This document shows, one piece after another, positions 1,702 through 41,798 of a stretch of 64,000 nt of DNA. How positions within the stretch are numbered: the first letter of the stretch is position 1; each line of letters begins with the position of its first letter. A program made the translations under genes and the position numbers. Under the pieces are notes generated by a model. It ran no database searches. It saw only the letters and a list, made by a program, of their open reading frames with translations, and was not told where the DNA came from. Source of the stretch: Halichondria panicea. Taxonomy: Eukaryota; Porifera; Demospongiae; Suberitida; Halichondriidae. The stretch is from positions 15,124,198-15,188,197 of the forward strand of contig NC_087377.1 of the NCBI RefSeq assembly GCF_963675165.1. Direction: 5' to 3'.

Positions 1702-2111
1702 TAACAATAATTTTTATATCATTATTATACATGTATACTTACTAAGTAGGTTATATAATGTGGAGGCATTTTTACACTAGCTGTGATATAATTATTTGAG
1801 CTCACTATAATGATTTGATGTTTCTACAGGATATTGCATGTGTCCTTTTCCTATAATTATACAATCATGCCATGCGTACTGTAATAAGATGCGTTATCAA
1901 TAATTATAATTATAGTAAAAAAAAATTTTCACTACAAATCAGCAGAATCTCCCACATGCATGCATGCCGTATAAACAAAATTTCACAATCATATTTTTTA
2001 TGAACATTTCTGATCAATAATATTATTAGTAAAAGCAGTGTATTGAGCAATGCATGCATGAAAGAGGAGATAGTTGTATTTTATATAGTATACAGTCTGG
2101 ACTGCATGGAG
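1702..2111. other. Short 3'-to-3' intergenic gap
   Basis: AT-rich sequence between the stop codon of the CCP gene and the stop codon of RNF113A on the opposite strand. It must hold both 3' UTRs. I see no coding or repeat structure beyond short A/T runs. Confidence 0.6.
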
Positions 2112-6116
<4,005 letters not shown>

Positions 6117-7530: not shown

Positions 7531-8045
7531 TATATAAAAATTATACAGTGGAACCTCCATTAACAACTACCTCCGAAGAGACCACACGCTACAAAACGGC
7601 CAAGGGTGGTTGAATTGAAACTGTATACAATGACTTCAATGGTAAAGCAACCTCTCAGGAACAGCCACCTCTCTACTCCGTATAACGGCAGCTTTCTAGT
7701 CCTCAAGCTTTAGTAATGGAAAATAACCTCCCAGAACGGACAGCCACACCCAAAATTAGCAGAAAATATTGATGAGATAGCTATTTTGTACAATCATGAA
7801 CACCTATAGCTGCCACCCAAATATATAGATGCATGCGCCATGGCACTTGGATCGAATTTTGCTCACATTTTGTTTTCCCGACATATTCTTTATGTGTCAT
7901 AGGTAACCTCTTTGTATAGAACAAAATGTGCATTTTAGCTAGCATAATTATTATACCCTCCGAGACAATATTATGTGCCTGGTAGCCGAGGACATACACT
8001 ATTCTCAGTTTGGTAACCTCATCATGTACGGATATAGGTGTCGTC

Positions 8046-8103
8046 TAGCCTCGAATCCAGGCCGATTATAATACGTATTTTAATCGACCTGGATTCGAGG
8101 CTA
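8046..8103. repeat. TAGCCTCGAATCCAGGCCG hairpin
   Basis: A near-perfect inverted repeat of about 26-bp arms, TAGCCTCGAATCCAGGCCGA on the left and its complement ending ATTCGAGGCTA on the right, closed by an AT-rich loop that contains a TACGTA palindrome. Confidence 0.85.
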
Positions 8104-8228
8104 GGTGTCGTCCTGTAATGATACTACTTTGAGGCTGCCAAAAACATTAAGATATCCCCTGTCCATTCGATCTGTCATTATTAATCCCCGAGGCGCGCCA
8201 CGGGTTATAGTAGTATGTCAGCCAGTCT

Positions 8229-8255
8229 GCCTGCCTGTCTGTCTGTCTGTCTGTC
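8229..8255. repeat. Short (CTGT)n microsatellite
   Basis: CTGCCTGTCTGTCTGTCTGT followed by CTGTCG. Copy 2 of the duplication at about 10400-10440 has a degenerate version, so the run expanded or contracted after duplication. Confidence 0.8.
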
Positions 8256-9723
8256 GTTCTGTGTATTCTGAGTTTACTCAATTGGATGTGATAGCGCTGT
8301 GTTTGAACCATGGATGGCCTCAACACAACAAAGTATAAATTTGATGTTAAAGCTTCGTTGTCGAAAAAAAGCAAGCAGAAGCTAAGAAGCTAAAAAGCTT
8401 GAACTGGCACATTGGCCTAGATGTACACACGGCTTTGACTCGAGGCTGCATGCATGTAGACTCACTAAACCTCAAATTAACGCCGAGGGTTTACACTTCA
8501 GTCCTCTAGTTTGGAAAGGGGGGTCACTAGGGTATTGGTGTGGCTGGATTGGGTTACCATGGGGCCAACATCGGAGACATTTTTGCAGAAATATGCAGGT
8601 GAATTGGGCGAAGTAGCAGAGATTAATATTTTAGTGAGAATCGTTCCGCATGCAGGTAAACAGTTATAACACATTCCTGGGATCCTTTGCTCATGTTTCA
8701 GGTCACATCATGTTAGTTCTTGCCCATCTACGTTTCAGACACATTTTCTAAAAAGACTAACTGACACCACCATACCCCCTGTTCCTAGTTCCCACGCATA
8801 TTAGTTTTTGTCCACAGCCCATACATCCACATTTCAGACACATTTTCTAAGAAGGCTAACTGACACCCCATGCATGTATACCTGCAGTCAACAGAGTCAT
8901 ATGATATGAAGGTTAATTGAGTACCTTAGAACATGAGCCAAGATTTGGACTATGTATTGAATACCTCAACCAACTTTGATCTTCAGGTGACACAATTTAA
9001 AATTATTCGTGGAGAAGGGAAGGTATACCTTATGTGATATTATTTTCGCGAGTATAAATTTTTGTTATTTCTGTGCGAATGAGAGTAAAATCGTAAAATG
9101 CGTGCTCGCAGATAATTGGAACAACTTGCGAGTACTTAGAAACGTTATATGAATAACACAACTTGAGCAAGAATTAGCAGAATTTAAACAATCGCAAATA
9201 AATCTACCTGTGAAAATATGTCACGATAAGGTAGTAAAAAATTAATGACTCGAGTCTCTCATTTTGTGCATCTTAATAATGATCATTTATCACATGCAGG
9301 GCTTGATTTATACCAATATCAACCGCTCAACCGTCCCCTGGGGGATTAAAATCACACCCCAGGTAATTGTAGATGAGTTTAAACACGAATTGATTCATTT
9401 GCTAACACGCCAAAATTCTCTACATGACATCCACACCAATTAAGTTATTAACAGTTATAGACTCAACACATTCCTAACTCTTGGCTCACATTCATTCCCA
9501 CTATTCTGACCCACTGCCCCCATTTTCTGCTACTCCTGACCATCCACGCACACCGTCGCATCGGACATGCTATAAAGTAAAATGGAGCGCACTATGATTA
9601 TGGTATAGACATTATACGTTTAGTCAAGTGTTGCTTTTTCCGCTGCTGTATGATTTGCTTTTAATACCTATATAGAAGTTAAGCTAGCTTAATTATATTG
9701 AGTTCCTTATACCGTGTACGAAA

Positions 9724-9793
9724 ATGTGCAGTGTTCCAACAGTGATCATACATACTGGTCGTCTTTGCGCAACAGGTTTAAAATCTTCATTTG
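9724..9793 (+). pseudogene. Dead copy of the receptor signal-peptide exon
   Basis: Aligned by eye to the first exons at 11828 and 19221, this has the same upstream block (AGTTCCTTATACCGTGTACGA), ATGTGCAGTG and the end AAATCTTCATTTGCCC. Its middle has changed so that the signal peptide [20 protein letters not shown] is not kept in frame, and no splice donor follows. It shows that a further receptor gene copy once started here. Confidence 0.8.
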
Positions 9794-9795
9794 CC

Positions 9796-11689
9796 CCTGT
9801 TATATAATACAGTGGAACCTCTATTAACAACTACCTCCGAAGAAATCACACGCTATAAAATGGCCAAAGGTGGCCCGGATTGAAACTGTATACAATGACT
9901 TCAATGTAAAGCAACCTCTCAGGAACAGCCACCTCTCTACTCCGTATAATGGCAATTTTATAGTCCCCAATAAGCTTTAGTAATGGAAATAACCTCCCAG
10001 AACGAACAGCCACACCCAGAATTAGCAGGAAATAATTATTGATGAGATAGCATTATTTTGTACAATCATGAACACTTAGCTGCCACCCCAATAGATGTGC
10101 CATGGCACTTGGATCAAATTTTTCTCACTTGTTTTCCCGTTATGTGTCATGGGACCTCCTTCGTAGAACAAAATGTGCATGCATATGTACAAAATGTTAT
10201 AGAGTCTTCTCTCTGAGACGATAATTATGTGCCGGGTAGCCGAGGGTATACACTATTCTCAGTTTGGTAACCTCCTCATGTACTATTATAGGTGTCGTCC
10301 TGCAATTTAAAGAGTTATATATACTTTGAGGCTGCCGAAAACATCAAGATATCCCCTGCACATTCGGAACCCCCGAGGCGCGCCACGGGTTATAGTATAG
10401 TGGGTCAGTCAGTCTCTGAGTCTCCGTCTGTCGTTCTGTGTGTTCTGAGTCTACTTAATTGGATGTGATAGTACTGGGTTTGTACCATGAATGGCCTCAA
10501 CACAATTAACAAGGTATAAATTTGATGTTAAAGCTTTGTTGGAATAAAAACAAGCAGCAGCTAAGAAGCTAAAAAGCTTGAACTGGCACATTAACCTAGA
10601 TGTATACACACGGCTTTGACTCAAGCCTGCATGTAGACTCACTAAACCTCAAATTAACACCGAGGGTTTATTGCACTTCAGTGCTCTAGTTTGGAAAGGG
10701 GGGTCACATATATGGTATTGGTGTGGCTGGATTGGGTTACCAATGGGGCCAACATCGGAGAAACTTTTTGCAGAAATATGCAGGTTAATTGGGCGAAGTA
10801 ACAGAGATTAATAATTATTATATTTTAGCGAGAATCGTTCCACATGCAGGTAAACAGTTATAACACATTCCTATAGATCCTTTGCTCATGTTTCAGTTCA
10901 CATCATGTTAGTTCTTGCCCATCTACGTTTCAGACACATTTCTAAGAAGGCTAACTGACAACACCATACCCTTATCCTAGTTCCCACACATGTTAGTTCC
11001 CCAGCACATACATCCACATTCCAGTTCTAAGAAGGCTAACTGACACCCCATGCATGCATACTTGCAGTCAACAGAGTCATAATTATGATATGAGGGTTAA
11101 TTGAGTACCTTAGAACATGAGCCAAGATTTGGAATGTGTATTGAATACCTCAACCAACTTTGATCTTCTAAAATCTCAGGTGACACAATTATTCGTTGAG
11201 AAAGGGAAGGTATATTTTAGGGTGACACATTTTAATTTCTGCTATTTCTGCAAATGAGAGTAAAATCGCAAAAATGTGTACTCACAGACAATTGTAAATT
11301 GCAATGAATCTCATTAAATAAACGACTCTCTGTATAATTATATAGCGTCTCTCATTGTGTGTTCATCTTAATAAGGATCATTTTATCACATGCAGGGCTT
11401 GATTTACACCAATATCAACCGCCCAACCGTCCCCTGGGGGATTGAAATCACATCCCAGGTTGCATTTGTAGATGAGTTTGAACACTAATTGCTTTGCTAA
11501 CACACCAAATTTCTATACATGACATCCTTAACAGCTTTAGACTTAACACATTCCTAACTCTTGGCTCACATTTCATTCCCACTATTCTCACACACATGCA
11601 CTGCCTACATTTTCTGCTTTACTCCTGACCATGTACGCACATCGTCGCATTGGACATGCTATAAAATAAAATTTGGCACTATAACTATG
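9796..11689. repeat. Tandem segmental duplication, copy 2
   Basis: Second copy of the block at 7531-9795. It has the same order of landmarks and numerous small insertions and deletions, many of them ATAATTATAA-type. It leads directly into the live promoter and first exon of receptor A. A shorter, more diverged third version lies in 16900-19100 before receptor B. Confidence 0.85.
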
Positions 11690-11827
11690 GTATAGACAAC
11701 AGTATAATACCTTTAGTCAAGTGTTGCTTTTTTCGCTGCTATATGATTTGCTTTTAACACCTATATAGGTCAAGCTAGCGTAGACTATTATATATATAGA
11801 GTTCCTCATAATTTATACTGTACGAAA
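11690..11827 (+). promoter_or_regulatory. Conserved promoter block of receptor A
   Basis: A block with TAGTCAAGTGTTGCTTTTTT, CGCTGCT, a TATATATA stretch and GAGTTCCTCATA sits just before the start codon. Very similar sequence precedes the first exon of receptor B and the dead exon at 9724. Conservation directly upstream of three exon-1 copies suggests a core promoter and 5' UTR, though shared duplication history explains part of it. The TATATATA at about 11788 is a candidate TATA element. Confidence 0.55.
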
Positions 11828-16451
<4,624 letters not shown>

Positions 16452-19089
16452 TACAAGCACTTGTATATAATTTTACTTGTGTTGCATTAACATATATAGC
16501 TGAAATAGCTGAATAGTTATAACCATTATGAGTGTTTCTAGAGAGTATAGTCTAACTCTTAATTTAGTTTTATATTCTGTTTATACATTATTAATATAAT
16601 ACACAAACTAAAATTAAAATGTGAAGATATTTACCATCCACAACCACTGTAGTAAATTCTGTTCCTAATGCACACACTTAATGTTATACCACTGATAATC
16701 ACCATGATTATGATGAAAAGTGAGTTGAGCTATACTAATACTAATCTATCATCCAATCAATGTGGCAGCTAGGTACTCCACGTTTCAATGCCCATATAAA
16801 TCCTTTGACTTAACCTCAGTGAATAAGCTCCACCAAAAATTAAGTAGCTATATATATAGCCCTTGGACATGCATATGCACTTGAACATTCTGCTCATACA
16901 ATAGTGTCATCCTGCAGTTCCAAGAGTATATACTTTGGGCTGCCGAAAACATCAAAAATTCCCTGCACATTCTAATCGTTATTTGGAAGGGGGGGGGGTT
17001 CACTAGAGTATTTGGTGTGGTTAGATTGAGTTACTATATACTGGAGCCAAATTTGAGGAGCGCTTAATTGTTGCAGAAACGAGTCTGCATGTGAATCAGG
17101 GGGAGGTAGTTTAGTGAGAATCGTTCACAGTTAACACATTCCTGGATCCTTGCTGTTCACGTCATGTTAGTTCTAGCCCATGCATCTACGTTTCAGACAC
17201 ATTTTCTAAGAAGACTAACTGTCAGTGACACCACCATACCCCGGCCTGTTTGCTTATACTATTTGTACATTCCAAAACAAGTGTGTTGATTCAAGCCCTG
17301 CGGATCCTCATGTTTCAGTTCCCCCTAGTTCTTGCCTATACTTCCCATCCACGTTTGTGTTAAGAAGATTACCTGACACCATAATTATAACTCCTCCTGC
17401 ATGTAATTGAGTGACCTCTACACAGCAAAAACACACGAGATGCATCTGTTAAATGACAGAAATTTATGTCATTTCTACATGAAATTTGAAAAGATGCGTT
17501 TCACATAACATGTCTGTAACAAATTAATGTGTTTACTAACTTGGAACATGAGGAATGTATAGTATTGAATACCTCAACCAACTTTGATCTTCTAAATATC
17601 AGGTGACACACTTCAAATCGTGGAGGTATTATAGTATAAATGCATGACTCTCAGCATGTATAAAGTCACTCATTTTGATAAGGATCATCAGGGCTTGATT
17701 TGCATCATATCAACCGCCTGACCGACCCCTGCATGGGGGATTGAAATGGTTCAGTTTGGATGAGTTTGAACATGAACATGTCAAATGTCTCTACTGAAAT
17801 CCATACCAATAACAACTTTATAGAGTAACACATTATTCATTCCCCCTGTCTTACCCACACAGCCCCTCGCTTCCATATCACCATGCAGATGGACTGTATG
17901 CCTGCTCAATTGCAACACTGTATTACGAACACCAATACAAATCATTATACTTGTTTCCCATTCTAAAATGCATGTATACTGTAGCTTCAATATGTACTGT
18001 AGCTTTAATAATTATTATAAGGGATTGCTATTAGCAACGATGCTCCTCGAATCACGGGAGCTAACACAGCTACGCTTAGTATCAGTAACGTTAGTGAAAA
18101 CGATGAAGGGGATTATAACGTATTCATAATGAACGAAGCTGGTGGTATAGCCTCCAATTCGGCGCAACTTGTACTGTGTAAGTCTGTGCAATGTGTACAT
18201 AGTTTACTTATTATGCATGTAATATCAAATACCGTTCTATATTATAGTATAGGAATGTTGTAGTTGGATTCAATAATTATGAAACATATATACCCATCCG
18301 TATACTCTCATGCATGAAATACCTACACCCTTAAATTCTGCCAGAACTCAAGTAATTCTGTAATTAGGGCAATAACTAAATAAAAACACCCAAACTTGGC
18401 CCAGAGTTGTAACGTGCATGCTTGCAGGGTTATGTAGCTATTTTTTTCTCCCACTCCTATAAGTGACTCTTGATCAGTAAATCCCCTTACATTATATGCA
18501 TGTATCCAATGATCGACTTTTTGTCTATAATCTTGCGGTTTATCAGACATGCACTCACAGCAGACATTTTTAGTTCCTGATGACTATATATAATCTGCCT
18601 TGTGAAAGCAATCGCAAATCTGAAGAAGTGCTTTCTAATCCAGGTGGTAGTCGTTTGGAAACCCTGTGCAGAATGTTCTGGAGAAAGTCCTACATAGAGA
18701 AAGTGCTCCCCAAGAAACTCACTTATATACTTATACTCATGCACTTAGTCAGTCAACCAACTTTGATCTCCCAAATATCAGGTGAAATTATTCGAATCTT
18801 GGAGGTATTATAGTATAAGTGCATGACTCTCAGCATGTATAAAGTCACTCATTTTGATAAGGATCATCTGGGCTTGATTTGCATCATATCAACCGCCTAA
18901 CCAACCCCTGCATGGGGGATTGAAATCAAATCCCAGGTTTTAGAAGCACGAGTTTGAACATAAACATGCCAAATGTCTCTACTGAAATCCATACCAATAA
19001 CAACTTTAGACATAACACATTTTATGCTTTACTGACTATACACACACCATCGCATTGAACACATGCTACACATGCTAAATTTTGGCACT
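16452..19089. other. Intergenic region with remains of a further receptor unit
   Basis: Contains a shortened version of the 5'-flank repeat of 7.5-11.7 kb (AACATCAAAAATTCCCTGCA, ACCTCAACCAACTTTGATCT, ATCAACCGCC). A receptor-type Ig exon fragment lies at 18021-18179. At 18597-18730 is a stretch (CTTGTGAAAGCAATCGCAAA) that also occurs in introns of receptor A (13254) and B (22170). The order suggests a deleted receptor gene between A and B. No intact coding sequence seen. Confidence 0.75.
18021..18179 (+). pseudogene. Orphan half Ig exon of a lost receptor copy
   Basis: Encodes NDAPRITGANTATLSISNVS followed by [20 protein letters not shown], closely matching the second half of the receptor B Ig exon 23103-23384. 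It keeps a GTAAGT donor. The first half of the domain is missing and unrelated sequence precedes it, so it is a truncated relic unless an unseen upstream exon supplies the rest. Confidence 0.8.
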
Positions 19090-19220
19090 ATTTATTATGG
19101 TATAGACAACAGTTTAGTCAAGTGGTGCTTTTTTCGCTGCTGCATGAGTTAATACATAGGTCAAGCTATATATATATTGCGTAGACTATTATATATATGA
19201 GTTCCTCATACTGTATGAAA
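19090..19220 (+). promoter_or_regulatory. Conserved promoter block of receptor B
   Basis: Matches the block upstream of receptor A: TAGTCAAGTGGTGCTTTTTT, CGCTGCTGCATGAG, TATATATA and GAGTTCCTCATACTG, then the start codon. It is shorter than A's block through small deletions. A core promoter is inferred from position and conservation only. Confidence 0.5.
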
Positions 19221-22200
19221 ATGTACAGTGGGAAAGTGATCGTATTGGTCGTCTTTGCAACATGTTTAAAGCCTTCATTTGCCGAAGGTATAATGTCATC
19301 TGCATGCGCATGTTCCAATCAGTATATGGATTGAAAATTGCACTTGCACTGTGTGTAAATGCAGTAGATTTCTGTAAGAGATATCCATTTGGGACTTATG
19401 CCCCACCCAATAACTCATTTTGTCCCTTTTATAGGCTACTACTTTTAGCACTAGAAGTGGGAAGAAAACCTAAAAATTTACTATGGAATTCAGCAAAACT
19501 AATGAATACACTAAAACATAATTATGTCTTTTATTACGACTTATATGACCAATCAGACGAGTTTAACGTCATTGGGCAACAAGTTAGTTATTGCCCAGCC
19601 AGAGTGAAACATGCCATACATTGCACTGGAGCAACATAATGCCCGAGGGCCTGCGACGTAACACATCATCGCTTTCATATCACCATGCAGATGGACTGTA
19701 TGCCTGTGCGCTCTATCACCATGCAGATGGACTGTATGCCTGTGCGCTCAACACTGTATTACAGATATCAATACAAATCATTATGTCCCACAAATTGTTT
19801 CCCATTCTAAAATGCATGTACTGTATATGTATATATAGGGGATTGAACATCACCACACCTGTCAAAAATTGCTATAGGAGGGTTGGCCAGGAAAATTATC
19901 CAATAGCGTGGAAAACTATCAGCAAAATATATAACTCAAACATTTTGCAAAATAAGTATATACATGTGAATGATGTTGTATAACTGATTGGAGTTATGCT
20001 CTTGCCGGATTTCTTATTTCTGCGCTTTTTGGTAATTCCCGGCATACACAGTCCATCCATGCGTGGTGATGGAAGTGATATAATGTGGTGGATGAAAGCT
20101 GGTACTGTCCGTGCCGGTGTATTCAATCATCTCCTAGTTAGTTTTAGAATTCCTATATAGTCTATTGTGATGCTATAATGTCACTACCATTATTATGGTT
20201 GTGTATATCCGTGTTCATGACGTTGCAGATTCCTGCTCGGATAGAGACGTGAGATTGGTTGATGGAACCGACAGACGTGAAGGTCGTGTGGAGGTGTGCA
20301 ATGGTGGAGCATGGGGCACAGTCTGTGATGATTTCTGGGCTTTAAATGATGGACATGTTGTGTGCATGCAACTTGGACTGGGAAACGGTAATGTTTTTGT
20401 GTGTGTGCAGACTGCTATAGCTATACTCAATGATCAATGAAGTGCAAGTAACAGCTTAATTCTAGTCGTGTTTTCTTAGATTGCAATTTGTGGATTTCAA
20501 ACTAAAACCTCAATAATCTCAAAAATTAATAGAGTCATTATAGTGCTAATAATTATTACCACACAATGGATAGTACCTTAAGAGAATGTGTGCACCCTGA
20601 CATATTGAGCATGCAACAGAGATATAGCGCATTTAACCATGGCATAATTATGATGAAGTAAGGTTAACATTAGGTTATGAATTGACAAATCCTAAACGTG
20701 CATGCATGCATGTATAATTATGCATGATGGCCAAAAATAATAGTGTTAATATACACAATTGATAGTACCCCGAAGGGGAGGCCTCCTTTTATTATGTATA
20801 CGATAAATGCTAATTGTTTTGATGTATCAGCAGTTTTATTTGCTTTAACCATAGATAGAAGAGAAAGGGATTGGCAACGGAGTGCACTTCCGGTATCATC
20901 CATGTTTCGCCTCGAGGGCTTACTTCCAATGTGGGAGTCTAAATATGAATAATTCATGAGAATTGTTTTTGCCGTCTGTAAAAAAGTTTACAAGCAGTTC
21001 TACTGCTAAACATCAATTTCACCTAGCTCATTTGTGTGGCGATTTGGGACATAGCACACACACTACGTACTTAGTAACACAACCTTAGCTATATCATAGG
21101 TGCTATAGGAACACAAGCATAAAAAAGCCTCTGACAGAGGCTCTGTGTACCTCTAGCTACTTTACGAAATCAAGATTATATTTTATTCATTTCTAAATGA
21201 TACCTACCATCAGGGGGCATGTGTTTAAGTGTTGGAGGGGTCTTTGAGAAGTAGGCATTAGACACAATAAGTTTCCCGGGTTTTTGCGGGAGTTTTAGGG
21301 CGAAACACGGATGGTTTCAGGCCCATCTGTGTACATTCAATGTAAAAGCATCACGTGAACTGCCCCGTTGCCAATCCCTTTCTCTTCTATCTATGCTTTA
21401 ACTTGCACATATTTTCGCAGGTATTAATTTCAGTAAAATCGCAAAAATTAATAATTATATACTCGATGAATCTCGTTAAAACCATGCGAGTAATTAAAAA
21501 CGATAATTATTAACTCACAACTTAAAGCACTATTTAGCACAATAATATTATTATTACCAGCAAAAAGCAAAATGAGCTAAACAGTGAATTCGCAGACAAA
21601 TCTACCTGTATATTATAACTATTTATCACGTACGCATGTACTGGCACAGACTGTTATCATTCACTAACTGCCCCCCCCCACACAGCCACATCTGTAATTA
21701 ATGAAGCATTCTTTGGACAAGGAACTGGAGCTATTCTCCTGAACAGCCTCTTCTGTACTGGCACTGAGGCCACTCTGTTTGATTGTCCCCATGGTCCAGT
21801 GAACTGTGACCATTCTGAGGATGCTGGAGTTATCTGTACAGGTATCAAATCCTATACTGGTTGCACTGATGGGAGACACTAAAATGTGCTGAGCTAGTGT
21901 AGAGCTAGTGTAGAGCAGTAAATTCAGTGAGTGTAAGTGGAGCGTGCGAAATTTAGAGCTTATAGTATTATAGAGACTCTTAATCCGACTAGAAGCAATG
22001 TAAAAACGTTGTAACGGATTGGATAGAGTTCTGTTCTCGCCGGATTTCTTGTTCAGTTCCATGTTTTTTTGGTGTTTCTCCTAGATAGCATGCTTGTATA
22101 CTTGTCGGTATTGCGATATTGCTGAGTCACTATATATAGGTGAGAGAAGTAGAGCCTGGGAGGTCATCTGCCTTGTGAAACTTCAAAGCAATTGCAAATC

Positions 22201-25200
22201 TGAAGAAAAGCCTTCTAATCCAGGCTGTAGTCGTTATGGAAACCCTGTGCAGAATCTCCTAGATATATGGCTATATATACATGGAGAAAGTGCTCCCCAA
22301 GAAACTCACTTACTTACCCATAGACTTAGCCAGTCAGACGAAGTTCAGTGAAATGTTGAAATAGTATTGACAATTAATACGTTCGTGGATATAACATTCA
22401 ATACAGAGGCTAAGTCAACTATTTGTCCAGCCAGTTTCTTGATGTGGCCCTTCTCTGCAGAGATAAAACAGTTTGAAAATTCAAAATATATGAAATATTG
22501 CTAAACACAGGCAAACCCACTACCATCCTACTAATCACACTCATGAACCATAATTATGGAAATCACAACATGCATTTTTGTCTCAACACCATGCAGCTCT
22601 TATCGATATCCAGCCTTCCGATGCCCTAGTCACAGTTGGACAAACAGCTACATTCTCTGTCAGTGCTTCTCAGACTGGAGAGGGAACTCTTAGCTACCAG
22701 TGGCTTTTTGGTGGAGCACCACTGGATGATGTACCTGGAAAGATTTCTGGCAGTACTAGCAGCTTCTTGGTGATTGTTAATGTACAAGTATCTGATACTT
22801 CCCAGGGCTATTCGGTGGTTGTATTGAAAGGCGAGGAAAACGTCACATCTGACAACGTCATTCTGTCAATATGTGAGTTTGCACGTCCCCTATAAATATT
22901 AGCTATGACAACACTGCGTTGGATTTATGCCATTTTTATAATAAGCATGCACTTGAATTGGATGTCCATTCACAAGTATCTGGTGTGTTTAATTTATTGT
23001 GCTTCATGCATTGCAGCTACTATAATTGTGTATATTTAGATTCAGTGCCAAACATTAATGTATGCTGATAATATCACATGATTATTCTCACTTATTTCTC
23101 AGTGTCACCACCAACCATCATGATACATCCAACTGAAGAACTACACATTCTTGCTGGGGACTCCGTGACTTTTACTGTTGTTGCAACTGGAGAGCTATCG
23201 ACCTTCATCTATGAGTGGCGAAAAGATGGTGATGATCTTGTTAACAATGCTCCTGTAATCACGGGAGCTGACACAGCTACGCTTAGTATCAGTCAACTTA
23301 AAGTAAACGATGAAGGAGACTATAACGTGTTCATAATGAACGATGCTGGTGGCATAGCCTCCAATGTCGCAGCACTCTCATTTCGTAAGTCATACATGGG
23401 TGCACATGCAGGGTATCATACAAGGGGGTATCCCCCTCTGGCTTCAATCCCCCCCCCCTAAAATATTTGCATTCAGGTACTAGTTGTATGACTGATAGCC
23501 AGCAGGGACACAGAGTATCGAAATAACAGTTGACCTTTTATAAAAATCATGCCTTATTTACTTCAAAATCCTGTATGACACCCTGCAGTGCATTTGAGTT
23601 CTGAGTACATAATATGTAGTATTTGGGGAGGAAAGGATGGCCATAATTATAACTATAGAGTTTTTGGATTGTCCGATAAAAGGATTTTGTGATTTTGTAT
23701 TGGGATTTTATTTTGAGACCTTTTTCTATTCATCACAGTTGCACCTCCGATAATAATCAACCAACCAGATAACTTGATAGTTGTTAATGGCAACCCGGCA
23801 GAACTAAGGGTGAGGGCAACAGGAGATTTCCTCACGTATAGTTGGATTCATAATGGCGCTCCTCTTTCTAACGTCGGTAATATCGCAGGGGTAACCACGG
23901 ACACTCTGACATTGTCATCTGCTCTTATCGGTGATGCTGGACTGTATCGTGTTGTAGTGCGAAATGATGCTGACACAGTATCTAGTATAGGTACTTTAAC
24001 AGTTGGTAAGTGTGTACACAGTATATGTAAGGAGAGATATCACTTTCCATAACAGTATATCCCTTTTCTGGTCAAATTGTTGTAAATTGTACAACAACAA
24101 CAATTAGCTGGGAGGGAGGTGCTATCAACTTGTCAATGTTGCATGATATTGGATTCTGTGGTAGATTGGATAGTATCATGAATGCGATTATCCTTTGAAG
24201 TTCTGCTGAGCTGTTCAATTAGGACATTTAAAAAGGTTTAAAACCAGCTATACAGCATGTAGGACTGAGTAGTATCCATCGGTAGACTTTCGACTATCTT
24301 GGTAGCCATAGAATATTTTCAAAGGACGAAGCAGTAAGCCATTTGTGTACACAGGCACTTCACAAGTGGACACAAGCACTACAATAGTCTACATGCTTGC
24401 TAAGCAGCTTAGTTGACCAGAGTGCAGTTTTTAAAGGCCACACATACTTCCATCGAGGCAGCAGCAAGGCATAAAATGGATGGTTAGTTTGTGCACAAAA
24501 CCATCAACCATTCACCACGCCCATCGATCTCTACTAAGCTATGGCCACTTCATTGGGGGGCGATAAAATCAAGCTAATTTGGTCAGATGCAAACTAAGTG
24601 ATGGAAAACTGTTCCAGATTGTGCGATTGACCTGGAAAAGGTATAGGTGTTTGTTAATGATTTTGGCCATGTTTTTAATCCTCAAGCAATTTCGTTTCTA
24701 AGCATTTTGTTGCACAATGTTCGTGGAATGGACTGCATGCTTTCCGGAAGCCATGCCTTTAATTTTTGCACGTTACAGCAGATAATTAGAAAAATTTTGT
24801 GAATTTAATTTTCGTGTACTCGAAAATTTCCACTCCAATTTGTCTGCATGCTATATAGTGGTTTTGTATGCCTATACTGTATAATTATTTTGTAAAAGGA
24901 TATCTTAGCCTTGATTCCAGGCCCCCCTTGAAACTCCGCCTTCTTCTTCCTGCGGCCTGGAATCGAGGCGTTATAAAACCGCACATGTACAAAACTGGTT
25001 TATTACCACTGTAAGTATTTTAGTAGTTTCCCCCTATCCATTCCTAGTTCCCATGGTGATGATATCTAGCCATCCAATGGACTTGGTGAATGTCAATGCT
25101 GGTATCGACGTCAGTTTCTCTGTCAATGCTATGGGAGGAGAGCAGCTGGTTTATCAATGGATGAAAGATGGAGTGGACATTGTAAATACTCAACTTAAAT

Positions 25201-27917
25201 ACACCGGCACAGACAGTAACTCTCTGACAGTGCTCAGTGTGAATGATCCTGATGATGAGGGGGCTTACTCTGTAACCGTGGGTAACCCTGCTGTAACTGT
25301 CACCTCAAATAATGCTACACTTTCAATAGGTAAAAGTGACGTGCATGCACGTACTAGCTAATAACTGCAGGTCATGCATGAAATATAAGTGTTGCATGGC
25401 TATGTCACATGTATTCTAAAGCACTGTTAGTTGACCAGATCACTAGTCAAAATAGTTGCATGAAGAAAGTTTTGTGCATTAATACTGCTACTGTACTGTG
25501 TCTGTATATACAGTTGCCTGTACTCCACTGACTGGTCCAATTGGAGGTGCCATATCGTACTCTACCGGTGCTCTTAGCAATGGTAACTACCCGACTGGAA
25601 CAGTAGCAGACTACAACTGCACTCTGGGAGAGTTGTTCAATGGAGACGCCACAAGGCATTGTCTAGCTGGGGGCACTTGGAGTGGAAGTGAACCATTTTG
25701 CTCAGGTAAGCTTGTTGAACGCTTTAAGACTCACCCTTCTTGGTATACAACTTTTATATGACACTTTTGGTTATGGTTTGTACCTTAATTGACAGTATAT
25801 ATGATTCGGTTCGAGCTAGTGTCCAGATTCACAGGTCATGCATGCATGTATGTGCACATATTAACTGGAATTAGTAAAACACCTCCTTCCCTGCCCTATG
25901 AGGTGCCGTTAGTGCCAAAACACCTTGTGTAAAACTAAAATTTACATTACTTTATATATTGCATAGTCTCCCGATTTATTACTAACTGGCTCACAAACGG
26001 CACCCTTCCCTAAATTGTACAATCATTATTTCCATAGATGTCTGTCCTGAACTTAGTGTGGAAGGTAGTGGTTTGTGATGATGATTGAGGTGGTGAGGGT
26101 TTGATTGGTGCTTCCATGATTACCTGTTTGACTAGACTTGGTGCCACCAATGGCATAGGGGCATGGAGCAGGACACCGTCATGTGACCGTGAGTTCCTGT
26201 CAATCGACGTGACTCTTAGTGTGCTTAGCTAAAACAATAATTATATAATTATTTGACAATGTGGTTTGTAGCTGTTCTGCATATTTTTTCTATACAGCTA
26301 TATCCAGTGCCCGTCTTTAGCATCCATTGATAATACCGTCATCAGCTACAACCCTGTTGGTACTGAACCCTTTGGGTTTAATACTGAGGCCACTCACACT
26401 TGTGCCATGGGCTACTACTTGAGTAATGGGAGTGATGTGAGGGTGTGTGAAGGAAATGACTCTAGTACTGCTGGAACTTGGAGTGGTACTGCTCCGGGAT
26501 GTTCAGGTATAATTTATTGATGGAGATTAAAACTAAATGAAAACTTACATAATTGACCCCATGCAGTACTTGTATGCTTCAGGCAATAAAGAAGCTCTTG
26601 AGTGTATTCCGTTTTAAGGCGTTTAATTTGTCTCCATAACGTAATGACCTCTTGCATGCCTTAGATCAAAGTGCATCTCTTGTATTATTGATTTCCGTGT
26701 GCAGCCAATCTCCCAGTCATCACCAGTGAGCCCAGTGACCTCCTAGTTAGCGAAGGGACAACTGTTCAGTTCTCTGTGACTGCTGAAGGTGCTAACTTGA
26801 CTTACCAGTGGATGAATGGAGCTGGAGATCTTTCCGACATGATAGGGAATATATCGGGAGCTACCACGGCAACCTTGACAATCGTAAATGTTGGCTTGTC
26901 TGATGTTGGTGTGTATTCAGTTCGAGTTAGTAACAGTGCTGGTGACGTTAATTCAACTATGCCTAATCTAATTATAGGTAAGATTGCTTTCTTGCAATAA
27001 TTTATACGTATACACCATAAATTGTTCTGTTTATATGATTTGTGTTTTTGATTCTGTTGCAGTGGACCTTCCTGTGATCACTTTGCAGCCGATGAGTACG
27101 GGAGTGGGGGAGGGTGCTAGTGTCACTTTTAATGTATCAGCATCTACGGGGGATGGTATTCTCAACTATCAGTGGCTAAAGAATGGGTCTGAGATACCAG
27201 GAGAAACATCCTCCACTCTGGTACTCTCTTCTGTCATGGATGATGATGAGGGAGCTTATAGTGTCAATGTCACCAACAGCCTCTTGTCAATCTCATCCGA
27301 TATTGCTACACTGACAGTTGGTAAGTACTTGCAGTAATTAACCTCTCGTACAGAAGCATCAAACCAGCTATATAATAATGATCCTATAATTATATACAGG
27401 TTGTGCCCTAAATGTCCTCGGAACAAGCCCCTCCTCTCACACTGGACCTGGCTCTGTCTCTGTGCCCAATGGAGTGATTTACTACAATGGTGTTGTACCT
27501 GGGTCCATCGCATATCTGTCATGTGACGAGGGCTACTCTTCAAATGAAGATACAGTAAATCGAACATGCCTAACGAACGATACATGGAGCGAGATTTTTC
27601 GAAGGTGTGTTGCACTACCATCTTCGTCTGCAAGTTCAACTCTAACTACGGGAGGGTCAATTGCACTGTCAATAGTTCTGACTTTCTTTGTTGCACTGGC
27701 TCTTGGCATTCTTATTGCTTTACTGGCTTTGCTGCTGTTTAAGAAATCCCATGTAAAGTCATTCGATCCAGCTTCGAATTCGCATCAAATGGATGCTGTG
27801 CAAAATGAGTATGCTGGTGATGTGAAGAAGAATGACCATGTGGTGCTTGAGTCTAGCTTTCAAGATACAGACACAGCTGTAACTGTTGAAGTGAATACCA
27901 TGATGGGTGGTCAATAA
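19221..27917 (+). CDS. Receptor B: SRCR-Ig4-CCP-Ig2-CCP-TM type I protein
   Basis: Usable exons: 19221-19287 (signal peptide [20 protein letters not shown]), 20229-20387 and 21686-21841 (SRCR), 22597-22872, 23103-23384, 23739-24005 and 25048-25329 (four Ig), 25514-25705 (CCP), 26705-26977 and 27063-27320 (two Ig), 27400-27917 (CCP, TM, tail). All junctions are phase 1, giving 909 residues. The first three Ig exons have no counterpart in receptor A. From 25048 onward it is a near copy of A, introns included. Two further CCP exons (26038-26188 and 26298-26506) are disrupted and must be skipped, or the gene is decaying. The tail keeps NEY but has HVVL where A has YVEL. The exon 1 donor (GTATAA) is weaker than A's. 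The modules are clear; whether B is fully functional is open. Confidence 0.78.
24690..24835. repeat. Decayed copy of the CGCGAAATTTTCG MITE family
   Basis: TTGCACAATGTTCGTGGAAT, GGAAGCCATGCCTTTAAT and AATTTAATTTTCGTG match internal parts of the intact elements at 34882-35109 and 54210-54446. The termini are degraded. It lies in the receptor B intron before the 25048 Ig exon. Confidence 0.7.
24906..24969. repeat. TAGCCTTGATTCCAGGCC hairpin in receptor B intron
   Basis: Positional homologue of the hairpin at 13355-13419. The right arm GGCCTGGAATCGAGGC is intact; the left arm has one C-to-T change and a C-rich loop edge. Confidence 0.8.
26038..26188 (+). pseudogene. Broken CCP exon in receptor B
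   Basis: Counterpart of receptor A exon 14516-14725 ([11 protein letters not shown], then [11 protein letters not shown]). It is about 59 bp shorter and reads into in-frame stops (TGATGA) after VEGSGL. The acceptor and donor are still present. Since flanking junctions are all phase 1, skipping it keeps the receptor frame. Confidence 0.85.
26298..26506 (+). pseudogene. Frameshifted CCP exon in receptor B
   Basis: Counterpart of receptor A exon 14835-15041. An extra AT lies right after the acceptor (CTATATCCAG against CTATCCAG), so phase-1 entry reads out of frame and stops early. The rest ([25 protein letters not shown]) is otherwise intact, so the change looks recent. No nearby alternative AG restores the frame that I could find. 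Confidence 0.75.
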
Positions 27918-28270: not shown

Positions 28271-28664
28271 CAGGGCCGTAGATAGCTTAGGTTTGCAGGG
28301 ATGGCAAATTAAATAACAGCTGAACATTTTTACTAAAAAAAGGTCAACTGTTATTCCATGTATCCTCTGAGTATGGCAACTTCCAACTTGCTGTGGCATC
28401 AAATAAAATAAGGTAGTTTGAACTAGGAAAGTGCCTGCTTCCCAGAGGCGCAGTGGAGCTCAGAATTTTACCTAAAAAAATGTTATTCTCAGCAGTCAGC
28501 ATGCCATCAGATTGGGCATATGCAGATCAATAATTTTGTCAGATCTAGAATAACAGGGGGGGAAGTTTCCCCCCCTAGCCTCGATTCAAGGCCGATTAAA
28601 CGTATTTTAATTGGCCTTGAATCGAGGCTATTTCCCCCCCTGCCCCATGTTGTCTACGGCCCTG
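28271..28664. mobile_element. MITE with CAGGGCCGTAG termini and nested hairpin
   Basis: The termini are CAGGGCCGTAGA and TCTACGGCCCTG, exact complements. The 394-bp body has no coding capacity. A hairpin of the TAGCCTCGATTC family (28576-28630) sits inside, flanked on both sides by TTTCCCCCCCT-type sequence, which suggests insertion into the older element. Confidence 0.8.
28576..28630. repeat. TAGCCTCGATTCAAGGCCG hairpin
   Basis: Arms TAGCCTCGATTCAAGGCCGA and TTGGCCTTGAATCGAGGCTA around AAACGTATTTTAA. TTTCCCCCCC(C)T on the left and TTTCCCCCCCT on the right flank it and may be a target duplication of about 10 bp. Confidence 0.85.
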
Positions 28665-31730: not shown

Positions 31731-31817
31731 TAGCCTCGATCCCAGGCCGAGTTTTCGCTTTTATAACGGTTTGCCTAACCGTTATAAAAGCAAAAACTCG
31801 GCCTGGGATCGAGGCTA
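31731..31817. repeat. Longest TAGCCTCGAT hairpin, ~41-bp arms
   Basis: Near-perfect arms TAGCCTCGATCCCAGGCCGA...TTTTATAACGGTT and complement, with a loop of a few bases (TGCC). This is the most intact member of the hairpin family. Confidence 0.92.
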
Positions 31818-32603: not shown

Positions 32604-35600
32604 ATGTCTACTGACTGTGACTGGGTTGTAGAGCGCTGTAAGGAGCAGTTGTCCAAGAACAGTAGAGCTGCTGCCAAGGCCTGGATACTGACAGCACGCT
32701 CACTCTATCCTGACAACTTTGCAGTGCAGGTATAGGTGCTAGAGTTTAGACGATGCCGCACTTCGTACCATGTGCCGTACCGTACGTGTACGTCAGTGTA
32801 TTATCAGGCACATCTACCTCTGATCCTGTGTATGTACTATAAATTATATAGATAAGGTAGATACCTGTATGAGTCAGGGAGTATTTTAGGTATCTTTGTG
32901 ATAAAATGCTTCCCATAATTCAGTATATTCTTAAAAGATAACCTGATTTTCATAATCGCCATATCTTAATTGTATTATGGCGTACATTTTACATTTTTTC
33001 AACAATTATCTCCAGAGAAATTTATAATTAAGCTTAGGTGACTCATTATACCAACATTTACCTTAAGATATTCAAATGAACCCGTTATAGACGACCCTCA
33101 CTAAACCAACACCCACACACTTATCCAACACTACCACCCACTCCACACACACAGTACGAGGCCTACTCACTTCATCTGAAGTGCGGAGAACTAAAAGAAG
33201 CAGCCAATGTCCTCGCTGATCTGTGAGTGGCCGGCTACATTTATAATCAATCTATCTACTATAAAATGTAGAATATGGAACCAGTTGTGTATGTATTTCT
33301 TTTGACCTCGATCCCCGGATATGCATCCTCTTAAATACATTTGTAACTGAGATAGACCTATTGACTCCCCAATCGTCTATATTCGGAGGATCACCAATGC
33401 ATTATGCATCATTCATCATTCAGGCACACATTTACATATGATATCCGTGATCCCCCCAGGCTCTCCAACTTCCCCCAAGAGTGTGCTCTACTAGACTACC
33501 AGCTGGATGTTGTGAAGGTTGTGTCTGGTTGCATGGGAACTGATGAGCTGAATAAATTCGGACCGCAAGATGAGGCGACCATGAAAGGTGAAGATGATTG
33601 GTTTTCTATTCCACGCATTCGCATTCTCAGTGAATGCATCTGAATATTGAATTTTGTCTATTATAAGTGTCTGTACTTTGTCTTCTGATGAAATGGTCTT
33701 ATAAATACAGATTTGTTCGGATCGTTGTCTCCCGGTGTACAGAAGAGCTTCCTCCTACAGGCTTGTGGTGAGCTCAGCCCCCCCCCACACTACACTGATT
33801 TGTATAAAATATACACTCCACTGATTATCACAACACCTACACATACACACACACATACATACGTTAATACCCCCCACAGAGCGACTGCCAGACATCTTAA
33901 TGAAGTGTCGGATATGGTTGGTCACTATCAGGCTCTTCCCCGAGACAACACGTTCGGTCGGGGTGAGTGGGTTGCTATATCGGTCGTGCTGTCACACTTA
34001 CGTTCTCTCTCCCTTAATTGTTTACAGCTGGACTTGTACGATACGCTGAGTCAGCAACCCTCCACTGAGTACAAACTTATGGCTGACGACCCATACAAAG
34101 AGCTACTAGGTAAAGAGTGGTTGCTAGACATGTACATGTACAGTCATGTATTTCTTACGTAGATCTTGAGTGTATTTAGGGAAATTATGTTGAGTAACTA
34201 TACCGTATAGCCGGTAATTGTCAGGAGGCAAATATTCGTGGTTGAGTAATATTTCGTCATTTCGTGGATAATATTTTCGTGGTTACTGCTTGCACTGCAG
34301 GTAAAGGTAGGCAAGGTCGCTTCATTCGTGGTCTGAGCTCCAACCACGAAAACCACGTATATTTTGTCCCCCGGAAATTACCCGATAATTGTACGGTATA
34401 TAATTTTAGGATAATTATATACAAGTGATATACTACAACTGTACGTACACACATAGCTCTAGTTAGCCAATGAAATTGGAGATCTAGACAATGTGCATTC
34501 GATATTCTATGCTTACAGTGTAACCTCGGCCCTTGGTTGTATTACATAAGCAGCACCCCCCCCCCACCAAAATATGCAGTTCGTGACGTGATCCCCACGC
34601 TGACAGAGTCCAGGGAGATCCAGATAGAGCGGCCAATCTCACGCTCTGATGGGCAGACAGTGATTCTCAAAACCAGTCATCTGTGTCAGTGGCTAGAGTC
34701 TGTTGCCGCTTACTTCACCACGGTAACAGCTCAGAGCCAGACCGCAAGCAGAGGTGGGTGAAGTCTGGGACTTAAAACCTGTGACCGCAATAGACACTTT
34801 ATTACTTGTGATCTCCATACATGTAAGAGCCTTGATTACTGTTTGGAAGCTAGTGTAAATACGTAGCTTCGTAAATGTACATACCGTATAGCGCGAAATT
34901 TTCGAGGCACTTATATTTCGTGGATTAGCCTCTAAAAGCTATTTCGTTGCACAATGTTCGCGGAATGACTGCTTACCGGAAGCCACGCCTTTAAATCTAT
35001 GCATGCTATAGCAGGTAATTCAATTTTCGTGGACTTAATTTTCGTGTAGGATTCTAACCCACGAAATCCGCGAAAATTAAGCCCCTCGAAAATTTCGCGC
35101 TATACGGTACTATAGATGATGTACCGTGTATAGCGTGTAATTTTCGTGAGGCATATTTGTGGTTTTCGTGGTTGGGGGTATGACCACAAATATTTTACCC
35201 ACAAATGAAGCGACCTTGCCTACCTTTACCTGCAGTGCAAGCAGCTACCACAAACATTTTACCCACGAAATGTCTCAATATTGCTGAACCACGAATATTT
35301 TGTCCCCCGAAAATTACCTGCTATACGGTATGTATGTTCAAAGTATGTGTGGTATAATTATTGCTTAGTGTGTGTGATATATGAACGCCTGTCTCCAGAC
35401 CACCCCTGTGCTGGTCGTGCCGGCTGGGACAGACTGCACCACCTCTTCCTCATGACAGCAGACAAGTGCGGCTGGAGAGAGGTCCTCTTGAGCAAACAGA
35501 TTGGACCTCATCTGTGAGTAACATGCAGCTAATTTATTGTATACCGTATAATGGGTAATTTTTTATGAGGTAAAAATTTGTTCAACTCAAACACGGTAAT

Positions 35601-38600: not shown

Positions 38601-40570
38601 AGTATAAGTATAGCTGGTACATTTGACTTCATGCTCTATTGAAATGAGCTATTTCACTATAGGTTCTTTTTTGAGTGTCCCTTATGTCAATTAATAGATA
38701 CTTGCACTTAGTATACGTACAGTATAGTGGCCCGTGCATGAGTAGCCCGTGCATGGATCAAGGTGTATGACATGTTGTGTTTAGACCTGCAAAGACAAGA
38801 CCATTAATTTTGACAACACTGAATTAAAGAAGAACTGAAGCATGATTATATAGAACTGAAGCATGATTATATAGGCTATAGCATATACAGTACGTACGTG
38901 TACGTATGTTTCACGCATGAATACAGAGAGAAAGTTGAAGGTGCTTCAGTGCTCTACCCAAGAGATACTACCCTACTGTATACAGGTCATCATCAGGACC
39001 TTGAAAGTAAGTGGACTTACTTATACGTACACTGCACATAGTTTAGATGTTCGAAATTTCTGCCCATTAGAATTTTTTGGGTTTTGTGTAGATAATTTTG
39101 GTGTCTTGAATGTGTAAATTAAGGCTTCATTTTAAATATCCACTCACCTTCTCCTTTTTGTTCCTAAAAGCTGTAACTGTAAACAGTTATTCTAATGGTT
39201 TCACACGTATACCTGGCCTTTTAGGCCACTCCAAATGAGACTGTATATATAGTTTCTCGCCAGAAGCTGCTATAGATTATACATGTAAATGCAGGCAGGC
39301 AATATTATCATTATTCATTACTGTGAATCAATACTTGCGACGTCATCGATTAATTTCATTAATTAACTAATTCAACACACCTGCTTGTCAATTTTTTGTA
39401 GCAATGTGACAATAATGACTATAACACTGGCAGAAGAGAACTATATATATATACATGCAGTCTCATTTGAAGTAGCCTGCTAAATTAAATTAATATAATT
39501 ATGTACATGTACATACCTGAACCACCATGAATTATTTATGATTAATCGTTTCAGTGTTACTACTCCCTCTAACTATACAGGAGGCTGCCACTGGTCACTC
39601 TCGTAGCGACAGGGCACTGGGTCACCTGCTAGTGCTGCTACAATATGATTGGCCCAAAGAGGAAGAGATGTTTGCACACGTCATCACCATGATTCAGAAA
39701 AGACGAAAGTTTAGCTTCCCTGAGTTCTTCAAATACGTCATCAGTATCCTCAGGGTTGATGAGCTATTTATTCAGAGTACAGTGAAACAACTAGTATAGA
39801 GTGAAACCTTCAATCAAGCGCATTTCTTAGTATACGCTGTGCGTCCATAATCCATTTATATATCTTTTGATTGGCGAGTCTATACATATACAATCGTACA
39901 ATGTATATTGTTTATCCTCAACCTTTCATCAGCTATCGACATTTTGGAGGAGATGCTGTTCCTCTACAACTGTGAGTCTCTTCAGATCACACTACTGCCT
40001 CAGGAGACCAACACAAAGTGAGTCTGCAGCCAGGGGTTATCAATTCAGTTGACTTACTTAAGTATAATATATAATTTATACATACGATTGACAGCTTGCC
40101 CCAATTATTATGGCATGGTCTTTAATTTGTTCTTTAGTGCTGTCTCTAGCTTGCACCTCCACACACACACAGCACTATCTGACTCCCCCACAATACTAGC
40201 TAACTAATCCCCCCTCCAGAATTTACTTCAGTTCAGATTAGCTGGTTAATTTTCACCCGCTTGGAGCAAGCCTACTGGCGCCTTGTCGATCACCCGCTTA
40301 TTTTGGACCCCACATTTTCACCCACTTATGCGAAATCCTGCCCCCCCACACATGCACATAACTATCTAACTCCCACACTATACTAACCCCCCCACACACA
40401 CACACACGCGCGCGCGCACACACAGGAGTCGTACTGTTACACGAGGTGTTAACAGAGGGGCTAGAGTGGACCTCATGGGAGCCATGGAGAAACAAGTCAG
40501 GAGGTGTGAGGAACCAATCGAACCGATACTCAGAACATTCTTCAAAGAACAAAAACTATCACTAGACTGA
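32604..40570 (+). CDS. INTS10: Integrator complex subunit 10
   Basis: Twenty exons: 32604-32729, 33155-33222, 33460-33587, 33711-33767, 33880-33962, 34028-34109, 34580-34753, 35399-35513, 35859-36028, 36495-36567, 36673-36734, 36850-36942, 37513-37595, 37651-37722, 37945-38007, 38141-38255, 38927-39006, 39581-39776, 39933-40017 and 40426-40570. Together they give 689 residues (human about 710). Matching blocks are AAAKAWILTARSLYPDNFAV at the N-terminus, LKVLQCSTQEILPYCIQV, LGHLLVLLQYDWPKEEEMF and, at the end, TRGVNRGARVDLMGAMEKQV. SSKRRKVEE near residue 370 looks like a nuclear localisation signal. INTS10 is a nuclear subunit of Integrator, which cleaves snRNA 3' ends and attenuates Pol II transcription. 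Introns carry three MITEs and a tRNA gene. The end of exon 18 (CAGA before GTACAG) is the least certain junction. Confidence 0.94.
34201..34398. mobile_element. MITE in INTS10 intron (TACCGTATAGCCGG)
   Basis: TACCGTATAGCCGGTAATTG at the left and AATTACCCGATAATTGTACGGTA at the right, a 198-bp non-coding inverted-repeat element. Its internal part (AATATTCGTGG, GGTAAAGGTAGGCAAGGTCG) is shared, in reverse, with the element at 35122-35330. Confidence 0.85.
34882..35109. mobile_element. MITE in INTS10 intron (TACCGTATAGCGCG)
   Basis: Termini TACCGTATAGCGCGAAATTT and its complement AAATTTCGCGCTATACGGTA; 228 bp with long complementary arms. Closely related to 54210-54446. Confidence 0.9.
35122..35330. 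mobile_element. MITE adjacent to the previous one
   Basis: TACCGTGTATAGCGTGTAAT at left, ATTACCTGCTATACGGTA at right, 209 bp, only 12 bp after the previous element. A further single-ended relic (TACCGTATAATGGGTAATTT) starts at 35541 in the next intron. Confidence 0.85.
37031..37085 (+). pseudogene. Decayed tRNA copy
   Basis: AAGTGGCTCAGTGGGTTAGT and then GCTTTGCATGCAGAAGC mirror the D-arm and anticodon arm (TGC) of the tRNA-Ala at 37395. The T-arm is replaced by a T run. Confidence 0.6.
37163..37235 (+). pseudogene. Second decayed tRNA-Ala copy
   Basis: GTGTAGCACAGTGATATAGA, then CAGTTTGCATGCAAGAGG and GAGTTC, resemble the D-arm, anticodon arm and T-loop start of the intact tRNA-Ala. The preceding TATTGTTGTTGCCACTTATT matches the flank of the intact gene, so this is a tandem duplicate rather than a retro-insertion. 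Confidence 0.75.
37395..37466 (+). tRNA. tRNA-Ala (anticodon TGC)
   Basis: 72 nt without intron. D-arm GCTC AGTGGTAGA GC, anticodon arm CTCGC TTTGCAT GCGAG (anticodon TGC), T-arm CGGGG TTCGAAC CCCCG. Box A (TAGCTCAGTGGTAGA) and box B (GGTTCGAAC) are canonical. The acceptor stem GGGGATG / TTTCTCC has two weak positions at the inner end. The discriminator is A, and the next base run TTTTTTTTTT is a Pol III terminator. It lies in an INTS10 intron on the same strand. Confidence 0.92.
37473..37484 (+). terminator. Pol III terminator of tRNA-Ala
   Basis: Run of T residues within ten bases of the tRNA 3' end, the usual RNA polymerase III stop signal. Confidence 0.8.
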
Positions 40571-41265: not shown

Positions 41266-41798
41266 TGCCTCGGTGCGCATGCGCAAGCGAGGTATACGGT
41301 AGTGTGTTTGTGTGTCTGTGTGTGTCTGTGTGTGTAGACTGCTACAGCTGCTCAAGGATGAATCAAGTGCAAGTAAGAGTTTCTATAGGCTTCTAGTCAT
41401 GTTTACTTGGATTTTAATTCGTGGATTTGCAAAATAATGCTTCATTCTCGAGTTATGCCTAGTTTTGCTTACTTGGAATGGCATTGCAGCCTTTTTAGAA
41501 GAGCACGTAACCAAACTTGTTAATCGAGTGTTGCTACTCTACTTAGTAGTTAGCTCTGCACTAGAACGCTAGCTATTGGTAGCTGCAAGAGTGAGAAGAG
41601 AGCGGCAAGGCTCTGCTGATGGCAGCCATTAATTTTAGACTTGAACTTTTGGCATCGATCGTTTTTAACAACAATCATGGTCGATCATTACCCACTCTGA
41701 GTTTTTGCATGCAGCAAAATTAAATTGTTTTTATCATGTGCATAAAAGCTATTAGTAGCAGCTTTATGTTATGTAGCTTTGGCATCTCCACCGAGGCA
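41266..41798. mobile_element. Element with TGCCTCGGTG termini
   Basis: Ends TGCCTCGGTG and CACCGAGGCA. Includes a GT-rich stretch and TGCTACAGCTGCTCAAGGAT. The same sequence occurs in opposite orientation at 47594-48977 with an extra insert, and as an old relic at 50270-50628. No coding sequence. Confidence 0.85.

Follow-up and report, generated by a model that had tools for sequence, protein, structure and literature searches.

Two tandem receptor genes with SRCR, Ig and CCP modules

The window analysed here, a stretch of 64,000 nucleotides from the sponge Halichondria panicea (contig NC_087377.1, positions 15,124,198 to 15,188,197, forward strand; all coordinates below are counted from its first letter), contains two tandem genes predicted to encode type I cell-surface receptors, namely receptor A (11828-16451, + strand, ten exons, 775 amino acids) and receptor B (19221-27917, + strand, eleven live exons and two broken exons, 909 amino acids). 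Internal junctions in both genes are AG/GT throughout, and the live internal exons all have lengths that are multiples of three and a single common phase. When the whole proteins were searched against Pfam, SRCR, Ig_3/I-set and Sushi (CCP) domains were found above the curated cut-off in both A and B, with three Ig_3/I-set stretches in A and six in B, and three Sushi stretches in A and two in B; Ig exons run singly also exceeded the cut-off in six of six cases. The second CCP exon of A gave no match when searched alone against Pfam, and it contains four cysteines and aligns with the other CCPs. Each receptor has one strong membrane stretch with a hydropathy peak of 3.09 and a tail of about 55 residues, in which A carries the motif YVEL (YxxPhi) and B has HVVL at that place, with no YxxPhi motif found in the B tail. 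Signal peptides were called by eye and mean hydropathy only. Gene models, Pfam and hydropathy agree in supporting an earlier sequence-only reading of this DNA, which had described two type I receptors with common signal peptide, SRCR, Ig and CCP modules, differing in the number of Ig domains (three against six), of live CCP exons (four in A against two in B, where the CCP2 and CCP3 exons are broken) and in their tail motifs.

In A, the signal peptide exon (11828-11894) is followed by two exons encoding the SRCR domain (12000-12158 and 12239-12403), the Ig1 exon (13512-13790), CCP1 to CCP3 (13986-14177, 14516-14725 and 14835-15041), Ig2 and Ig3 (15232-15504 and 15598-15855) and a last exon (15934-16451) with CCP4, the transmembrane helix and the YVEL tail. 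B likewise begins with a signal peptide exon (19221-19287) and two SRCR exons (20229-20387 and 21686-21841), followed by three Ig exons present in B only (22597-22872, 23103-23384 and 23739-24005), a fourth Ig exon that is the counterpart of Ig1 of A (25048-25329), CCP1 (25514-25705), the remnants of CCP2 and CCP3 (26038-26188 and 26298-26506), the fifth and sixth Ig exons (26705-26977 and 27063-27320) and a last exon with a CCP, the transmembrane helix and the HVVL tail (27400-27917).

The CCP2 exon of B is 59 nucleotides shorter than its A counterpart and runs into stops, and the CCP3 exon has two additional nucleotides and is out of frame once CCP2 is skipped. Such broken exons, together with a tail devoid of the YxxPhi motif, could mean that A is the working gene and B a decaying copy, a pseudogene in the making. 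We consider this rather improbable, given that B remains open across 909 codons with both broken exons skipped and its other splice sites intact, and that in the last exon the proportion of amino-acid changes between A and B is below that of silent changes (pN 0.039 < pS 0.090, p = 0.039, one among eight exons tested).

A and B each have a single SRCR stretch, scoring 100.4 bits in A and 91.4 bits in B against a cut-off of 26.1, and the Pfam range includes seven cysteines in A and seven in B. SRCR domains of Group C, with seven cysteines (six shared and one extra), are described as predominantly found in sponge (PMC10855680; here and below, statements on cited papers refer to those parts of their text that were available to us). 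The cysteine count of the A and B domains equals that of Group C, a likeness by count alone, with the position of the extra cysteine left aside. A search for SRCR relatives in viral contigs gave six pattern matches, none of which was confirmed.

Divergent heads on a nearly identical stalk

Comparison of A and B at the DNA level revealed a mosaic of identity along the two genes. The head, taken as the alignable signal-peptide and SRCR exons with the adjoining intron, is identical at 530 of 605 aligned sites (87.6%), the stalk, which starts within the first Ig exon common to both genes and extends to the CCP4 exon, at 2381 of 2449 sites (97.2%), the last 351 coding bases at 327 (93.2%) and the bases 3' of the stop at 119 of 184. 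The difference is pronounced between head and stalk (p = 4e-19), and the last part differs both from the stalk (p = 3e-4) and from the head (p = 0.006). Introns adjoining the head exons are 74-91% identical. Over 13512-16451 of A, introns (942/970, 97.1%) match B as well as exons do (1812/1876, 96.6%). Coding constraint as the cause of the stalk likeness was hence ruled out, and the stalk was likely homogenised, either by gene conversion or through replacement of one 3' half by crossing-over.

The highly alike tract covers 13506-16451 in A and 25042-27917 in B. Its left edge is located near 13506/25042, beyond which identity drops to 158 of 224 sites, and a foldback element lies to the left of the tract, adjoining this edge in both genes (13357-13418 in A, 24908-24969 in B), within a stretch that is 77.7% identical (13301-13418 versus 24858-24969). 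The foldback arms GCCTGGAWTCGAGGC have 13 matches at no more than one mismatch within 5598-32260 and none in 100 shuffles, other examples of the element being present at 8048-8101, 28578-28628 and 31733-31815; the foldback-element pattern had no match in viral contigs. As the two broken exons of B sit within the alike tract, the damage to CCP2 and CCP3 probably postdates the homogenising event.

In the head, the second SRCR exon shows 20.2 amino-acid versus 2.8 silent changes between A and B. The direction fits diversifying selection on the head, yet this explanation was not adopted, as p = 0.196 for the second SRCR exon and 0.677 for the whole SRCR.

Cysteine-free Ig domains and their likeness to prokaryote repeats

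The nine Ig exons of A and B represent six distinct kinds, with Ig2 of A and its B partner being identical in protein. None of the nine contains a cysteine, hence they are without the inter-sheet disulfide pair of animal-type Ig domains, and the core tryptophan is invariant in all nine. One of these domains was used to scan prokaryote genomes and gave 229 pattern matches at 34 loci, 22 of which are titled Verrucomicrobia and one of which is archaeal, and the open frames at these loci hold up to 20 such Ig repeats; the five best matches have 45-49% identity to the query domain. Two loci (L027 and L032) had no domain under the thresholds and were dropped, and a prokaryote profile was made from 32 randomly drawn domains, one per locus, 10 of which contain cysteine. 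An animal profile was made from 14 of 21 stretches of four proteins (titin, myosin-binding protein C, Robo1 and MALT1), with 7 short or low-scoring stretches excluded.

All nine Ig domains scored higher on the prokaryote profile than on the animal profile (59.1-91.4 versus 21.2-43.5 bits), and shuffled controls (n = 180) reached at most 5.3 bits on either. With cysteines masked in both profiles the ranges stayed apart (52.9-92.0 bits for prokaryote versus 21.6-43.9 for animal), which rules out the missing cysteines as the sole cause of the bacterial likeness and argues that the sequence itself, beyond the lack of cysteine, is nearer to the prokaryote repeats. When the prokaryote profile was cut to 14 domains in three draws, scores were 43.1-87.6 bits, the lowest of them falling just below the top animal-profile score of 43.5. 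A profile of the nine domains searched against PDB gave as best matches 9ncf ('Immunoglobulin-like domain protein') and 9c2d ('tail protein'). Single domains reached at most 57.3 bits there, and the best single-domain animal chain noticed among 60 of the 336 matches was titin M5 (1tnm) at 42.1 bits. Further, a tail-protein family of PHROGs was matched by nine of nine Ig domains, at best with 5e-14.

What these comparisons safely support is that the Ig exons encode I-set-like domains without cysteine, closer in sequence to the prokaryote repeats than to the animal domains compared. Their core is similar to that of the Verrucomicrobial Ig repeats (L001-L005) and of 9c2d and 9ncf, many of which are without cysteine as well. 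However, those repeats are uninterrupted and prokaryote, whereas the Ig domains of A and B are single phase-1 exons of an animal receptor. A stronger proposal would be that the Ig stalk derives from bacteria: a cysteine-free repeat of the Verrucomicrobia and phage-tail type would have entered an early animal genome, gained phase-1 introns and been shuffled into SRCR receptors. We hold this to be unlikely at present and do not accept it as demonstrated. The prokaryote loci were collected with one of the window's own Ig domains as query, the animal set covers only four proteins, and one animal domain reached 56.5 bits on the prokaryote profile. In a domain tree of 84 columns, with bootstrap not settled, 12 of 14 animal domains group apart from the window's domains (97/91) and the two MALT1 domains are placed among Bacteroidota; in approximately unbiased (AU) tests, the groupings of animal domains alone (p-AU 0.339), window with animal domains (0.317) and window with bacterial and phage-like domains (0.42) were none of them rejected, so that the tree is not decisive. 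A structural model of one Ig domain (the best of five with a predicted local distance difference test score, pLDDT, of 94.9, in a range of 57.7-94.9) had as its first fold match Ig5 of Robo1 (template modelling score, TM, 0.86), and 50 of the 50 matches listed were animal proteins. Were the Ig domains truly bacterial in origin, an animal receptor would have drawn part of its ectodomain from bacteria, the account of how animal Ig receptors arose would need revision, and the sponge would be using a microbial module to survey microbes or conspecifics. Among the papers listed in literature searches on bacterial-type Ig domains in sponges, judged by titles and the beginnings of abstracts, we recognised none that deals with this subject.

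Duplicated flanks, a wrecked unit and a third receptor

Rearrangement at the locus is further evident from its duplicated flanks. The 5' flank of the receptors is present in four copies, the flanks of A and B themselves included, and not in three as had been counted from the sequence at first, although the duplication as such stands. A nearly full copy (7540-9796, + strand) aligns in three pieces over 9804-11891, with 83-84% identity to 9804-11294 and 81% to 11347-11891, thereby covering the flank of A proper (9804-11827, + strand), and ends in a relic of the signal-peptide exon. The flank of B is partial (18753-19220, + strand), and a further, degraded copy is present at 16904-17834. The relic exon (9724-9807, + strand) has a start codon, 27 open codons and a stop; relative to A and B it contains inserts of 7 and 2 nucleotides, nine in total, so that the frame is kept, and the GTAAG donor of A is not kept, the beginning of the next flank copy standing in its place. 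The dead first exon described before at 9724 is hence real. As no further exon was found downstream of it, this copy can be explained by a partial duplication, about 2.26 kb long, of flank and first exon, and an additional complete gene need not be assumed.

Between A and B, sequence comparison revealed a wrecked unit (16904-18755, + strand), consisting of a degraded 5' flank (16904-17834), an intron-1 piece (17867-17983), a fragment of an Ig exon (18036-18158) and a piece of the SRCR-Ig intron (18593-18755), partly out of order. The Ig fragment is 88% identical to the second Ig exon of B and corresponds to a truncated exon that had been noticed near 18021. From these comparisons, the loss of one unit between A and B is well supported and that of a second is possible; of the earlier proposal of at least two more units, the wrecked unit is borne out, and the copy at 9724 need not count as the second, as a partial duplication would be enough. 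No further unit of the A/B type was found in the window. A search with the exon-encoded proteins gave only the upstream CCPs and the fragment at 18036, and when the left 30 kb was compared with the whole window at the DNA level, all matches past 30 kb were short repeats of 110-130 bases.

The upstream CCPs belong to a third type I receptor, of which the 3' end is present (1-1701, + strand); Pfam and hydropathy (peak of 2.94 in the last exon) indicate a minimum of six CCP exons together with a membrane helix and a short tail. The first of these exons is cut by the left edge of the window and nonetheless matches Sushi above the cut-off, as do five of five whole exons tested, and the CCP stretches are 78-86% identical among themselves at the DNA level.

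Likely role and relation to known receptors

Clustered recognition receptors often evolve with a common part kept and the binding part varying. The sequence comparisons make it reasonably probable that A and B are tandem SRCR receptors of this kind, with a stalk made alike by conversion or crossing-over, varying heads and an SRCR domain whose ligand would be microbial or on a cell surface. The stalk and, less clearly, the membrane span and the tail would owe their likeness to gene conversion, or to the replacement of one 3' half through crossing-over near the foldback at 13.4/24.9 kb, with the SRCR head and the length of the stalk left free to vary. The SRCR head would be the ligand end, A could act in signalling or uptake via the tyrosine of YVEL, and B, without this tyrosine, might be a longer-reaching adhesion form or a decoy. 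Several points weigh against this reading. Amino-acid changes in the SRCR head do not significantly exceed silent ones (p = 0.196); the coding end (93.2%) and the 3' flank (119/184) are less alike than the stalk, making 'anchor and tail in common' a weaker description than 'stalk in common'; the mosaic could stem from a single segmental replacement just as well as from several conversions; chance alone can produce a YxxPhi motif in a tail of this sort; and A and B are known from the DNA sequence of one individual alone.

The same long stalks of Ig and CCP domains would fit cell-adhesion receptors that have no role in recognition and were multiplied by chance tandem duplication. A putative aggregation receptor of the sponge Geodia, known to us by the title of Blumbach's 1998 report as cited in PMC3447736, is said to be a molecule of SRCR and short consensus repeats tied to cell aggregation, and A and B resemble it in combining SRCR with such repeats (CCP). 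They differ from it in having one SRCR domain, where that of Geodia reportedly has many, and in the addition of Ig domains. Overall, we judge pure adhesion to be an unlikely explanation, although not the least likely of those considered, as turnover of exons and units is generally commoner in immune receptors than in structural adhesion proteins.

To our knowledge, the genes for self/non-self recognition in sponges are not known. A role of A and B in allorecognition is possible by analogy, in that they would be polymorphic receptors for self and non-self whose heads and unit number vary, as in the clusters of fester and its co-receptors (FcoR) or of Alr. The fester family and co-receptors of Botryllus are clustered paralogues encoding surface receptors with Ig and sushi domains, the co-receptors being type I with one membrane span and tyrosine motifs in their tails, and uncle fester resembles duplicated 3' exons of fester with an unrelated 5' half, an only-3' duplication that parallels the A/B mosaic (PMC12065747). 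Compared with clusters of the fester/FcoR and Alr type, the present locus contains two receptors and an upstream CCP receptor, with YVEL in A and no YxxPhi motif in B, as well as tandem units, relics and the head/stalk mosaic. However, the SRCR head of A and B is not mentioned for fester in the available part of that paper, A and B were read in one haplotype of one individual, the excess of amino-acid changes in the head falls short of significance as given above, and microbial compounds elicit a response of an SRCR gene in the sponge Aplysina (PMC6208332). On balance, an allorecognition locus appears the least probable of the explanations weighed here. In a grafting transcriptome study of Amphimedon, the text is without the words SRCR, scavenger receptor, immunoglobulin and receptor (PMC5450542).

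Microbe recognition or adhesion is thus the role that we favour for A and B by analogy with known sponge genes. In Amphimedon, 158 of 296 SRCR genes lie in tandem arrays (PMC10855680), three sponges have SRCR together with Ig domains (PMC4772301), Halichondria has it together with sushi repeats (PMC8242945), and both a response to microbes and an enrichment in choanocytes are described for sponge SRCR genes (PMC7308585). The A/B type is a variant of these known SRCR plus Ig and SRCR plus sushi receptors, sharing with those of Amphimedon, Stylissa and Halichondria the SRCR head and the tandem arrangement (PMC10855680, PMC4772301, PMC8242945), with a cysteine count of seven as given for Group C. 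It departs from their descriptions, as far as the available text of these papers goes, in joining SRCR, Ig, CCP and a membrane span in one chain, in the head/stalk mosaic and in the cysteine-free, bacterial-like Ig domains. A recognition or adhesion role had also been proposed in the sequence-only reading; of this, the tandem, rearranging pair of surface receptors is upheld by gene models and duplications, and the role is a fair reading of the modules.

New in this locus are the head/stalk mosaic, the cysteine-free bacterial-like Ig exons and the third CCP-bearing receptor at 1-1701. The Ig domains foremost, but also the mosaic, merit a closer look. The mosaic provides a testable model in which clustered receptors keep a common stalk and their binding ends diverge. 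Showing receptor duplication, loss and likely homogenisation in one stretch, the locus also offers a concrete target for genotyping.

Neighbouring genes and repeats

Between the third receptor and A lies a stretch on the - strand (3793-4104, the gene perhaps spanning 2100-4900 as judged by eye) that matches the RING-type splicing factor RNF113A/CWC24 (PDB 5z56, 30 residues, E 2.5e-9). Downstream of B, an exon resembling Integrator subunit 10 (INTS10) is present on the + strand (39542-39796; Pfam INT10 above the cut-off), followed on the - strand by frames with matches to an ion transport channel and to ankyrin repeats, both below the cut-off (43365-49399), which might at a guess constitute one TRP-like channel gene. 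A frame of 358 codons on the - strand (56595-57668) has a match below the cut-off to a DXD glycosyltransferase. Two similar frames of 92 codons each (58909-59187 and 59690-59968), on opposite strands and about 500 bases apart, appear by eye to form an inverted repeat; for one of the two, Pfam gave no match. Helicase fragments on the + strand (60988-62148), which we take to be RecQ-like, matched DEAD twice, once above and once just under the cut-off, and Helicase_C below it.

Two dispersed repeats, with copies that are 79-81% identical, were also observed, one of about 110 bases (20400-20505, 41327-41437 and 48804-48914) and one of about 120 bases (24700-24818, 34936-35048 and 54271-54392), both having copies within introns of B and elsewhere in the window.

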